The notes under the pieces were generated by a model, which ran no database searches, was not told the origin of the DNA, and was given only the letters and a program-made list of their open reading frames with translations. This document shows positions 21,695 through 35,740 of a DNA stretch of 37,471 nt, one piece after another; position 1 is the stretch's first letter, and each line of letters opens with the position of its first letter. The position numbers and the translations under genes are program-made. Origin of the DNA: Acidobacteriota bacterium (GTDB lineage Bacteria; Acidobacteriota; Terriglobia; Terriglobales; SCQP01); assembly GCA_021826505.1 (NCBI GenBank), contig JAKAZV010000011.1, positions 1 to 37,471 of the forward strand, given 5' to 3'.

Positions 21695-22905
<1,211 letters not shown>

Positions 22906-22914
22906 AGGACAAAG

Positions 22915-23904
22915 CTACTTTTCCGGGGGCAGCCCCTGGAGGGCGCGCCGGACGCGGTCCTGAGCGGCGTGGATGCGAGCCAGAGCCTGGCTTTGCAGTT
23001 GCATCTGGCGCCGGGCGGCGGCGGCGTGGCCGGTGTGAAGATCGGCGAGGGCCAGATAATAATGCGGGGTGGGATTGGCGCCATCCAGGCGCACGGCCTG
23101 GCGCAGCGGCGCCCGCGCGGCGGAATATTGATGCGCCGCGACCAGGGCGCGGCCGAGGCCAAGTTGAGCGTCGGCAAAGGCCGGGTTGATATGGCAGGCG
23201 CGGCGGAAATCGGCGATGGCGGGCAGAAATTGCCGGGCCTGAAAATGCATGACGCCCAGAATGTAGAGCGCGCCGGCGTTGGAGGGATCAATTTTCAGCT
23301 CGGCGTGAAATTCCTGCCGGGCGGCGGCCAACGATGCCGGGCTGGGATGAGGCACGGAGAGCAGCAGCCGTCCGATGCGGTAATGGATTCCCGGCAGGCC
23401 GGGATGGAGCTTTAACACCCGGCGATATTCGGCCGCGGCCTGCGTCCATTGGCCCATGCTTTCGAGCGCCTCGGCATGCAATTCATGCACCTGATATGAA
23501 CCGGGGGCGACGCGAAGCAAACGGGCCGAAGCCGCCGAGGCCAGCTGGGAATAGATGTGAACGGCTAAAAAGCTCACCTCAGCGTCCCGGGGAAAGGCGG
23601 CCTGCAATGGGGGCAAAAAATGCAGCGCCTGGCGCGGTTGATTGAGCAGCATGGCGCAGCGGAGAGCATCGAGACCGGCCCGGCGGTAGACGGAGCGCGG
23701 CAGGCGGGCGGCGGCGGGCCAGCCAGCCCGCAACGCGGGCAGGGCCTGGGCGCAGCGGCCCCGGGCGGCCAGCATCAGACCGCGGCGCAACTGGACGAGC
23801 GCCGGGGTGACGGCTGGCGCCGCCGGCAATGACGCTGCCGCCAGAACCGCGGCAGACAGGAAAAGCGCCCGAAGACCTGACCGAAGTGGATTGCTTAGAT
23901 TCAT
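22915..23904 (-). CDS. Secreted tetratricopeptide-repeat protein
   Basis: A protein of about 329 residues with a signal peptide (PLRSGLRALFLSAAVLAAASLPAAPA) and several TPR units in the second half, such as ALESMGQWTQAAAEYRRVLKLHPG, NAGALYILGVMHFQARQFLPAIADFRRACHINPA and FADAQLGLGRALVAAHQYSAARAPLRQAVRLDGANP. TPR arrays bind proteins; the partner is unknown. The ATG at 23904 is used here; a TTG at 23919 would add five residues. Family I copy 1 lies just downstream and family II copy A just upstream. Neighbouring secreted proteins (esterase, TonB receptor) suggest an envelope or polysaccharide role, but no direct evidence. Confidence 0.8.
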   Translation of the reverse strand: MNLSNPLRSGLRALFLSAAVLAAASLPAAPAVTPALVQLRRGLMLAARGRCAQALPALRAGWPAAARLPRSVYRRAGLDALRCAMLLNQPRQALHFLPPLQAAFPRDAEVSFLAVHIYSQLASAASARLLRVAPGSYQVHELHAEALESMGQWTQAAAEYRRVLKLHPGLPGIHYRIGRLLLSVPHPSPASLAAARQEFHAELKIDPSNAGALYILGVMHFQARQFLPAIADFRRACHINPAFADAQLGLGRALVAAHQYSAARAPLRQAVRLDGANPTPHYYLALADLHTGHAAAARRQMQLQSQALARIHAAQDRVRRALQGLPPEK

Positions 23905-23939
23905 CAGCTTAAATCGCAATGCTCATCCATCCAGCAAAA

Positions 23940-24115
23940 GGATCACGCTCAGAGATAAGCATCGCATAGCGGCGTTGGAACCCGCTCGGCAACCCTCACA
24001 TACATCCAGATATGTTGCGGTTGCCTCGCGGTTTCCGTCTTCGCCTGCTCGCAGCTTTTCATGAAGCAATTCCTTCGGAATTGCTTTTCCCTGAGCGCTC
24101 AGCATCGTTCAACGC
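23940..24115. repeat. Repeat family II, copy A
   Basis: About 170 bases align without indels to copy B (34621-34795), with 16 differences counted by eye. The core 23946-24097 has imperfect inverted ends (CGCTCAGAGATAAGCA on the left; the right end reads CGCTCAGGGAAAAGCA on the other strand). Inside are a perfect hairpin AAGCAATTCC-TTC-GGAATTGCTT, a GGCAACC/GGTTGCC pair and a variable short hairpin (ACATA/TATGT). It lies between the TPR gene start and the terminator of the TonB receptor gene. Confidence 0.88.
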
Positions 24116-29138: not shown

Positions 29139-29155
29139 TTGGCAGGGTAAATGCT
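29139..29155 (+). promoter_or_regulatory. Possible sigma-54 promoter before the minor-pilin operon
   Basis: TTGGCAGGGTAAATGCT matches the sigma-54 consensus at 15 of 17 positions by hand comparison, with GG and GC ten bases apart. It overlaps the first possible ATG (29151). If functional, transcription would start near 29166 and translation at the ATG at 29169. The GGCAGGG could instead simply be the ribosome-binding site for 29151. Confidence 0.3.
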
Positions 29156-29774
29156 TCAATTCACGCCGATGAGCGCCACGGAGCTAAAGCGGCTGAGGTG
29201 TCGGCCCATACAAACGGGCGAAAATCCCCACCACAATGCGGGATTTACCCTGCTGGAATTGATCATGGGGCTGGGCTTCATGGTGGTGATGAGCGCGATC
29301 ATTGCCCCTAATTTACAGGCCAGCCTGAGCGCGTACCGCTTGAATTCAGCCCTGAGCAGTCTGGCGGGCAAAATCACGGTGGCTCATTACAAGGCCATGT
29401 CGGGCAATACCGACTTTGAGGTCGCGATCAGCACCACAAGCAACAGCTATCAGCTCGACCAACTCACGAGCAGCAATCCCCGCACCTTTGGACTGGCGGC
29501 GGGCGAAGAATCCATTAATCTCCCCACAAGCGTCAGTTTTGGCTATGGCACGGTGACCACGGCGGCCGGCGATGCCGGCGAACAGCCTTCATTGGCGCAG
29601 TCCTCGGCCATTGCCTTCAACTCACTGGGCATGCCCGTGGACAGCAATGGCAACCCCACCCCCGCCAATGCCTTTTATCTGACCTGCAACGGCCAGGTTG
29701 GCGCGGTAACCGTCTCCCAGGCTGGTAAAGTGGAGTCCTGGTTATGGAACGGAAATGCCTGGGTGGCGCTTTAG
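29151..29774 (+). CDS. Minor prepilin, FimT/GspH-like
   Basis: A 207-residue type IV pilus or type II secretion pseudopilin. The prepilin peptidase site is HNAG-FTLLELIMG (cleavage after Gly31, Glu at +5 of the mature protein), followed by the conserved hydrophobic helix and the globular GspH-like domain (ALSSLAGKITVAHYKAMSG, IAFNSLGMPVDSNGNP, AFYLTCNGQVGAVTVSQAGKVE). The last pattern, with a Gly-rich strand near the C-terminus, is usual for FimT. Start alternatives are 29151 and 29169. It is the first of four pilin-like genes. Its TAG stop at 29772-29774 is formed where repeat family I copy 2 begins. Confidence 0.88.
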   Translation: MLQFTPMSATELKRLRCRPIQTGENPHHNAGFTLLELIMGLGFMVVMSAIIAPNLQASLSAYRLNSALSSLAGKITVAHYKAMSGNTDFEVAISTTSNSYQLDQLTSSNPRTFGLAAGEESINLPTSVSFGYGTVTTAAGDAGEQPSLAQSSAIAFNSLGMPVDSNGNPTPANAFYLTCNGQVGAVTVSQAGKVESWLWNGNAWVAL

Positions 29775-29928
29775 AACCTGACTCATAAAGCCATGTCTAT
29801 TAAAATTCACGCCATGCATGCGGCTTTTCTTGCGCTCACCATTCCGCCCACTCCGCAGAATGGTTTCGCGGGAAAAGCCGCAAACCTAACCCTGATCTGA
29901 TGGCCTGCACCATTTATGAGACAGGTTC
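29773..29928. mobile_element. Repeat family I, copy 2, MITE-like, inside the pilin operon
   Basis: A 156-base element with termini AGAACCTGACTCATAAA and TTTATGAGACAGGTTC. Nested inside are TGCGGCTTTTC/GAAAAGCCGCA and a central ACCATTC/GAATGGT stem. The left tip overlaps the stop codon of the FimT-like gene. The right tip contains the ATG (29916) that opens the PilV-like frame. It has the same orientation as copies 1 and 3. Confidence 0.9.
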
Positions 29929-30464
29929 CAATCACCCGCCAGATTCAACCCGGCCGCATGGCCCGAGGGCCGCATCGCAGCGGCGCGGGATTTACGCTTC
30001 TGGAAGTGGTGGTGGCGCTGGCGGTGCTGGGCATTTCTGTGCTGGCTTTTGCCGGTGTTTTCGCCATCGGCGCCTCTACTTCGCACGCGCAATCCGACCA
30101 GAGCCAGGCGGTGGTCATTTGCCAGAGCAAGATGGAGCAACTGCGGACCCTGAGCTTCAGCGACACCGAATCTGATACCACGCAATCAGCGCCTTATCCC
30201 TGCACGGGCACGGGGTTGGCGCCGGGCGGCAGCACCAGCCAGGCGATCACCGGCTATTCCGATTATGTGGATGCCGCGGGCGATGAAGTCAATGCGCCTG
30301 CGTCGCAGTTCGAGCGCTTTTGGGCGATATCCGATCCGAGCGGCAATCTCGATACCATCGCGGTTTACTGCAAACAGATCAACTCGGTCAGCCCGCTGAA
30401 TGTGCATGTGACGCTGACCACGGAAAAGACCGATAACGGATTGATTCCCGCCAATTGCCCCTAA
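29916..30464 (+). CDS. Minor prepilin, PilV/GspI-like
   Basis: A protein of up to 182 residues with prepilin signature GAG-FTLLEVVVALAVLGISVLAFAGVF (cleavage after Gly25, Glu at +5) and KMEQLRTLSF, typical of PilV/GspI. The rest is a short beta-rich domain with Cys residues. The ATG at 29916 lies in the terminal inverted repeat of family I copy 2, so the first four or five residues (MRQVP) are encoded by the repeat. An in-frame ATG at 29958 would give an 11-residue leader MARGPHRSGAG and avoid it. Neither has a good ribosome-binding site. Second of four pilin genes; its stop is at 30462-30464 and the next gene's ATG follows at 30473. Confidence 0.85.
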   Translation: MRQVPITRQIQPGRMARGPHRSGAGFTLLEVVVALAVLGISVLAFAGVFAIGASTSHAQSDQSQAVVICQSKMEQLRTLSFSDTESDTTQSAPYPCTGTGLAPGGSTSQAITGYSDYVDAAGDEVNAPASQFERFWAISDPSGNLDTIAVYCKQINSVSPLNVHVTLTTEKTDNGLIPANCP

Positions 30465-32976: not shown

Positions 32977-33012
32977 ATAAGGATCACGCTCAGAGATACG
33001 CAGCGTGTGACG
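32977..33012. repeat. Repeat family II, remnant copy C
   Basis: GGATCACGCTCAGAGATA (32981-32998) matches the left end of copies A and B, directly after the PilX-like stop. The following CGCAGCGTGTGACGG resembles the right end of copy B, as if the middle were deleted. The result can fold as CACGCT/AGCGTG with an 11-base loop. Confidence 0.55.
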
Positions 33013-33110
33013 GCTGAAGTCCAGACCCTAACAGAAACCCCGGCCTTCCCAACCGATACGGCTTTTATATAGTGAATGCTAAACTCGTGGGCCACCGCTA
33101 TTCGCAACTT

Positions 33111-34600: not shown

Positions 34601-34616
34601 GCGCCCAGAATAACAA

Positions 34617-34795
34617 ATAAGGTCACGCTCAGAGATAAGCATCGCATAGCGGCGTTGGAACCCGCTCGGCAATCCTCATGTACATCTATGTACACTGCGG
34701 TTGCCTCGCGGGTTCCGCCTCCGCCTGCTCGCAGCTTTTCATGAAGCAATTCCTTCGGAATTGCTTCTCCCTGAGCGCTCAGCAGCGTTAACGGC
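34617..34795. repeat. Repeat family II, copy B
   Basis: Collinear with copy A without indels. The inverted ends are clearer here: left CGCTCAGAGATAAGCA (34626 on) and, on the other strand from the right, CGCTCAGGGAGAAGCA, matching at 14 of 16. The internal hairpin AAGCAATTCC-TTC-GGAATTGCTT is identical to copy A. The variable stem is TGTACAT-CT-ATGTACA, perfect here. It fills nearly the whole gap between the SFPASDPP gene and ruvB. Confidence 0.9.
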
Positions 34796-35022: not shown

Positions 35023-35044
35023 GCAATTATTCCCCGGCCCGCTA

Positions 35045-35233
35045 CAACCTGTCTCATAAAGCCGTGTGCAGTAAAGTTCACACTATGCATGCGGCTTTTC
35101 TTTCGCTCGGGCCCAATTGCCGGCATAGCCGGCAATTGGGCACCTCTCCGCCAAACGCGCGGAATTGTTTCGCTGGAAAAGCCGCATACCTACCCTGATT
35201 TGATGCTATGCACCATTTATGAGATAGGTTCTA
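35045..35233. mobile_element. Repeat family I, copy 3 (long form), MITE-like
   Basis: A 189-base element with termini CAACCTGTCTCATAAA and TTTATGAGATAGGTTCTAG. It contains ATGCGGCTTTTC/GAAAAGCCGCAT and a perfect 14-bp inner hairpin (GCCCAATTGCCGGC, loop ATA, GCCGGCAATTGGGC). The right tip coincides with the stop codon (TAG) of the SPW-type gene read on the minus strand. Confidence 0.9.
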
Positions 35234-35620
35234 GGCCGCGCGCCGGCCAATGTCGCCGGTGTCGCGATAAGCCCCGACCGTGACGCCGGTTTCCCGTGTG
35301 GCCAGATACGCGAAAATCAATACGATAATGCCGGTCACAATGTTATTCCAGCGCAGTCCTGATCCCACGAAACCCAGAATGAACGGCGAGATGATCAGCC
35401 AGATGCCAAAGATGAAATTAGCCCAGCTCAAGCCCTGCGCCGACGGATTGGCCATGCGGCCTATGGCGCAGGCCAGAATCAGAATGCCAAAAATGACATC
35501 ATTCCAGCGCGCGCCGGTGGCCGCGCCAACCGCGAACGGGGCAATGATCATCCATATTCCTGCTAGAAGATTGATGACCGTATAAAACGTCAGGTTTTTG
35601 GAGCGAATCGCAACCGCCAT
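35231..35620 (-). CDS. SPW-repeat integral membrane protein
   Basis: A 129-residue protein with four predicted membrane helices arranged as two similar halves: NLLAGIWMIIAPFAVGAATGARWNDVIFGILILACAI and NFIFGIWLIISPFILGFVGSGLRWNNIVTGIIVLIFAY. The repeated W-hydrophobic-(A/S)-P-F pattern followed by W-N-(D/N) defines the SPW repeat family. Function is unknown. The ATG at 35620 has AAGGAG eight bases upstream, so the upstream extension of the frame to 35713 is not used. The stop codon lies in the tip of repeat family I copy 3, which may have trimmed or slightly changed the C-terminus. Confidence 0.85.
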   Translation of the reverse strand: MAVAIRSKNLTFYTVINLLAGIWMIIAPFAVGAATGARWNDVIFGILILACAIGRMANPSAQGLSWANFIFGIWLIISPFILGFVGSGLRWNNIVTGIIVLIFAYLATRETGVTVGAYRDTGDIGRRAA

Positions 35621-35740
35621 GGCAGACTCCTTGAAAATGCCGCTATAAGAGCAGACGCGGAAGGGGTCATGGCTGGTTATCCGGGACGTGGGAAAATCCC
35701 TTGTGGCTGGCATGGTGAATCAACCGAGACCCCCTGGCTC

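Follow-up and report, generated by a model that had tools for sequence, protein, structure and literature searches.

The 37,471-nt stretch of DNA analyzed here (the window, corresponding to contig C15 of the draft genome) contains a short repeat lodged between genes for a FimT/GspH-like and a PilV-like minor pilin. The left tip of this repeat coincides with the TAG stop of the first gene and its right tip carries an ATG in frame with the second, while a further copy has one tip on the stop of a gene for an SPW-domain protein. The question that this locus raises is whether the repeat is built to settle within coding sequences with little damage, by closing one reading frame and starting the next, as put forward in the original prediction, or whether a simpler property brings gene ends and repeat tips together.

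The draft genome is acidobacterium-like, and comprises 2.75 Mb in 183 contigs with 89.6% completeness. Site counts and codon usage were obtained from a background sample of 434 kb, with a G+C content of 61.6%, and genes around every copy of the repeat were called using a simple codon-usage script trained on this sample. A DNA search retrieved 29 matches, and searching for the end pattern gave 44 ends, versus 2 for the reversed control, for a total of approximately 30 copies genome-wide. The copies are dispersed, short (about 85–190 bp overall and most of them 136–187 bp, with an 86-bp form resulting from an internal deletion), non-coding and hairpin-forming; their ends are inverted (AACCTGTCTCATAAA) and are common to transposase-bearing elements from the relatives G006, G007, and G052. 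The repeat is therefore a new MITE family of known kind, and its initial identification as a mobile-type element is well borne out by the matching inverted ends and TA duplications of these copies. Acidobacteria MAGs make up most of the named records in which these repeat ends occur; matches in records from Actinomycetota and Calothrix were treated as probable chance. The window contains three copies (Table 1), and the minus-strand gene at 22915–23775 has its TAG stop 9 bp beyond the duplicated dinucleotide of the first of them. Another repeat family, 174 nt long, also occurs in the window, with two copies that are 90% identical (23936–24109 and 34616–34789) and a shorter match, a 36-nt partial copy, at 32979–33014.

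Table 1. Position of the MITE copies and of the associated genes and sites in the window.
Feature	Coordinates	Strand	Remarks
MITE copy 1	22818..22903	+	86 bp, internal deletion
FimT/GspH-like minor pilin gene	29151..29774	+	Full length, ends at the MITE tip
TAG stop of the FimT-like gene	29772..29774	+	Target-site TA plus the G tip of copy 2
MITE copy 2	29774..29928	+	155 bp with G...C tips; separates the FimT-like gene from the PilV-like gene
Right terminal inverted repeat of copy 2, TTTATGAGACAGGTTC	29913..29928	+	Outward ATG at 29916
Right target duplication of copy 2	29929..29930	+	Now CA; probable T-to-C change from TA
PilV-like minor pilin gene	29958..30464	+	Favored start ATG 29958, with an 11-residue leader; ATG 29916 would give a 25-residue leader
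MITE copy 3	35045..35231	+	187 bp, extra internal stem
SPW-domain gene	35231..35713	-	Native TAG stop (35233-35231) at the right tip of copy 3

Alignment of the junctions of all copies produced the consensus ...YTA^GAACCTGTCTCATAAA...TTTATGAGACAGGTTC^TAR... (in short, YTA^GAACCTG...CAGGTTC^TAR, where ^ marks the limits of the element), with TA duplicated within a YTAR target. On the left, 19 of 28 junctions have exactly TA as the duplicated dinucleotide, and on the right 18 of 25 do; TA is present on both sides in most intact copies. The base preceding it is C or T and the base following it is mostly G or A. In copy 3, for instance, the TA duplications occupy positions 35043–35044 and 35232–35233, and the target reconstructs as CTAG. 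The G and C tips of the element remain unchanged where the outer flanking bases vary (e.g., TTA^G...C^TAA), and the duplication is therefore TA and not 4 nt; on these grounds we ruled out a 4-nt duplication, as for MITEPsy1. Nine intact copies located away from stops show the same target (Y in 9/9, R in 7/9), so that the consensus was not created by the copies situated on stops. Both ends begin with G (inward GAACCTG...) and read TAG inward, on opposite strands; hence, any targeted TAA or TAG codon would be rebuilt as TAG, in either strand and with the element in either orientation.

The relatives G006, G007, and G052 contain IS copies (858, 898, and 864 bp) with the same ends and target as the MITE, and in which an ORF matching DUF4096 (PF13340) overlaps an ORF matching DDE_Tnp_1 (PF01609). 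These ISs are mostly inserted in CTAG, and their flanks (C/TTAG...CTAG) are consistent with a TA duplication. In a survey of Paracoccus, members of the IS427 group of the IS5 family measured ~832–865 bp, with inverted repeats of 13–21 bp, mostly 2-bp direct repeats and, in many of them, two overlapping ORFs (PMC3281130). The ISs from the relatives are alike in their size (~0.83–0.9 kb), in their overlapping ORFs giving a DDE transposase, and in their 2-bp duplication; the domains, size, and duplication length thus fit an IS427-like member of the IS5 family as the parent element. In contrast to members of this group, the element in the window is non-autonomous (86–187 bp), and a matching DUF4096 transposase was not found in the 89.6%-complete draft, where the two DDE_Tnp_1 matches have no matching element ends nearby. 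Judging from the relatives, mobility of the MITE would most likely depend on an IS427-like transposase of the IS5 family acting in trans.

The two coincidences first noticed in the window are real: the TAG at 29772–29774 ends the ORF at 29151–29774, with the left tip of copy 2 contributing to it, and the right tip of copy 3 lies on the stop of the SPW-domain gene (35233–35231). Their interpretation as insertions inside coding regions did not hold, however. With the TA in frame, the codon present before insertion can be reconstructed by adding to TA the base that follows the duplication on the other side; by this procedure, the target codon was TAA or TAG in the five readable cases (copies 2 and 3 of the window and those from contigs C85, C71, and C79), with fimT yielding a native TAA under the assumption of one T-to-C change, its right duplication being CA. 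The genes themselves are full length: from a shared anchor to the end of FimT there are 52 residues in the window, as there are in G002 and G007, two relatives without the repeat at this position; LeuC matches TIGR00170 up to position 465 of 466, FabH matches TIGR00747 up to 322 of 322, and the aldehyde dehydrogenase from contig C119 covers its Pfam domain. A truncation model, in which the TAG at the tip is a premature stop, was rejected in view of these native targets, the completeness of LeuC and FabH, and the match of FimT to its relatives up to the last residue. As a separate observation, the element always leaves TAG, which is the rarest stop in this genome (47/333), and a native TAA was apparently turned into TAG in three of the five readable cases.

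A predicted gene stop falls exactly at a MITE tip in 7 of the 30 copies. The genes concerned are fimT and the SPW-domain gene from the window, those for the aldehyde dehydrogenase (C119) and for a transpeptidase-domain protein (C125), leuC (C85), fabH (C79), and a 64-aa ORF without a family match (C71); the copies from contigs C90 and C151 lie 1–2 nt from a stop. Independent cases occur in relatives G001, G009, G012, G013, and G032, as well as in a proteobacterial MAG, and involve genes for flavin reductase domain, TPR-like, ActD, RNB-domain, and beta-lactamase-domain proteins, and for a pair of S66 peptidases. The latter two genes, from the proteobacterial MAG, are convergent and flank an element with the same ends (locus L150, 6914–7176); one of their stops is exactly at a tip and the other is 1 nt from the opposite tip. 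In G012, two genes (PIN domain and MraW family) end instead at the TAA located 14 nt inside the element.

Placing the copies uniformly in intergenic DNA would leave an expected 0.10 of 30 on a stop versus the 7 observed (P about 7e-12), and so the enrichment of gene ends at the tips that would be anticipated from the original prediction does exist. One way to account for it is active targeting, by the transposase or the MITE, of stop codons or of the 3′ ends of genes (e.g., terminator structures) beyond the tetranucleotide, and the observed number also exceeds the 2.75 copies expected if any intergenic-or-stop TA were equally available (P 0.017). Nevertheless, the excess is gone when the null considers the YTAR target (7.3/30 expected, P 0.62), because 99 of the 406 YTAR sites of the 434-kb sample that are not in the interior of coding sequences are stop codons; in the relatives, approximately 6 of 45 junctions are on stops, which is not above the 14–30% available from CTAG sites. 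An active search for stops is, in our opinion, very unlikely. We saw no MITE copy splitting a predicted gene, or ending one inside the element, in this genome, even though 60% of all YTAR sites are inside genes, which fits a loss of damaging insertions. Together, YTAR specificity and the loss of gene-breaking insertions suffice to predict 7.3 of 30 copies on stops, and therefore no additional stop-seeking or gene-shaping property is needed.

The idea that the element is built to insert in coding regions, with the left tip ending one frame and the right tip opening another, finds some backing in its sequence: two of the three incoming frames meet a stop, either the TAG of the tip or a TAA located 14 nt further in, and in four cases the frame of the tip ATG continues open into the gene that follows. 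Yet the codons hit were native stops of full-length genes, and random in-frame truncation should use the internal TAA as often as the TAG at the tip, whereas the predicted genes from this genome that end at each of them are zero and seven, respectively. As to the opening of frames, the ATG belongs to the terminal inverted repeat TTTATGAGACAGGTTC and hence is present at most tips. For the 20 outgoing genes within 200 bp, 12 of the tips retain the ATG, and in 5 of these 12 usable cases it shares the frame of the following gene, as against 4 expected by chance. It is both in frame and open for pilV (copy 2), leuD (C85), and genes from contigs C39 and C79, but a conventional start exists 18–30 nt further on in three of these four cases. 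The original prediction was thus right in that ATG 29916–29918 lies in the inverted repeat and is in frame with the ORF at 29916–30464, but this arrangement is not enriched among copies; with stops explained by the target and selection, and the ATG by being a fixed part of the repeat, a structure devised to end one frame and open another appears extremely improbable. Two of these copies deserve description. That from contig C85 (locus L071, 2796–2980) occupies the stop of leuC in what looks like a leuC-leuD pair; it lies 24 bp ahead of leuD, and its outward ATG shares the frame of that gene. That from contig C79 (locus L086, 2331–2483) is located between two genes; its right tip is the fabH stop, and a minus-strand ORF of 185 aa is predicted to start at the ATG of its left tip, this ATG being the best candidate for a start truly supplied by the element.

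It could still be that the PilV-like precursor starts at ATG 29916, in which case the insertion would have disrupted a stop-start overlap and provided the leader with a new start. Indeed, in relatives G002, G007, and G019 the start of pilV overlaps the stop of fimT (ATGA), and this coupling is absent here, where the tight junction is replaced by a predicted hairpin of ~155 bp; additionally, after the in-frame TGA at 29898 the only possible ATG, GTG, or TTG starts for pilV are those at 29916 and 29958. A leader of 25 residues is possible for a type IV pilin. Conversely, the leaders of the relatives, counted from the ATGA start, have 13–16 residues, nearer to the 11 residues obtained from ATG 29958 than to 25; ATG 29916 is base-paired with the left repeat in the stem of the predicted RNA hairpin of copy 2 (-61.9 kcal/mol, z -8.3) and has no Shine-Dalgarno-like sequence, and codon usage selects the start at 29958. 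An obvious ribosome-binding site was not found in the sequence of either ATG. A start at ATG 29916 is consequently unlikely, and pilV most likely starts at ATG 29958, as far as can be judged from the sequence. Incidentally, the codons for the conserved end of FimT (LWNG; 29743–29774) contain an ATG in the frame of pilV, as also occurs in two relatives, and this frame now runs into a TAA inside the MITE.

The reading that we favor, and that is very probably correct, is that a MITE with a YTAR target often lands on native stops and rebuilds them as TAG, that gene-breaking copies are lost, and that the ATG is incidental. The putative IS427-like transposase would insert the element at the TA within YTAR, with CTAG as the best target, duplicating this dinucleotide. 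YTAR is uncommon in a GC-rich genome, yet it is present in every TAA or TAG stop preceded by C or T; intragenic insertions would be purged, leaving about a quarter of the surviving copies on native stops, and the ATG near each tip would be simply the terminal inverted repeat read outward. A bolder version would have the YTAR target and the G/C tips as an evolved stop-preserving strategy, with stops serving as safe harbors in GC-rich genomes and being rebuilt in either orientation, TAA thus becoming the rare TAG. Copies would then be maintained at the 3′ ends of genes, and the hairpin that they form there may change how operon mRNAs (fimT-pilV, leuC-leuD) decay; we regard this as speculative and quite unlikely.

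The favored reading offers a simple and checkable rule for small repeats overlapping gene ends, which is that their target tetranucleotide holds a stop codon on both strands. For annotation purposes, repeats of this type should be expected to supply harmless TAG stops, and their outward ATG should not be taken as a start without evidence. In the case of the pilin operon, the consequence is that two genes that are stop-start coupled in relatives are separated by a strong predicted hairpin.

Repeats that supply gene stops without truncation have a precedent in the BOX elements of Streptococcus pneumoniae: 36 annotated genes have their stop inside the repeat, with no strong evidence of truncation in comparison to orthologues (PMC3049150). 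BOX belongs to an unrelated repeat family with a different architecture, and the passages considered do not give the coincidence of target and stop as an explanation. The pneumococcal RUP is, like the element described here, a MITE with a TA target; it contains stops in all six frames, and its presumed source of transposase in trans is an IS sharing its ends, IS630-Spn1 (PMC2229807). The ends of RUP are, however, of the IS630 type and not of the IS5 type. MITEPsy1 from Pseudomonas syringae is a non-coding element of 100 nt, with inverted repeats of 18 nt, that inserts at CTAG or YTAA (PMC3189936). The sequence of its inverted repeats is different and a 4-nt duplication was reported for it, versus only TA here, but both elements have in common a target of the YTAR type.
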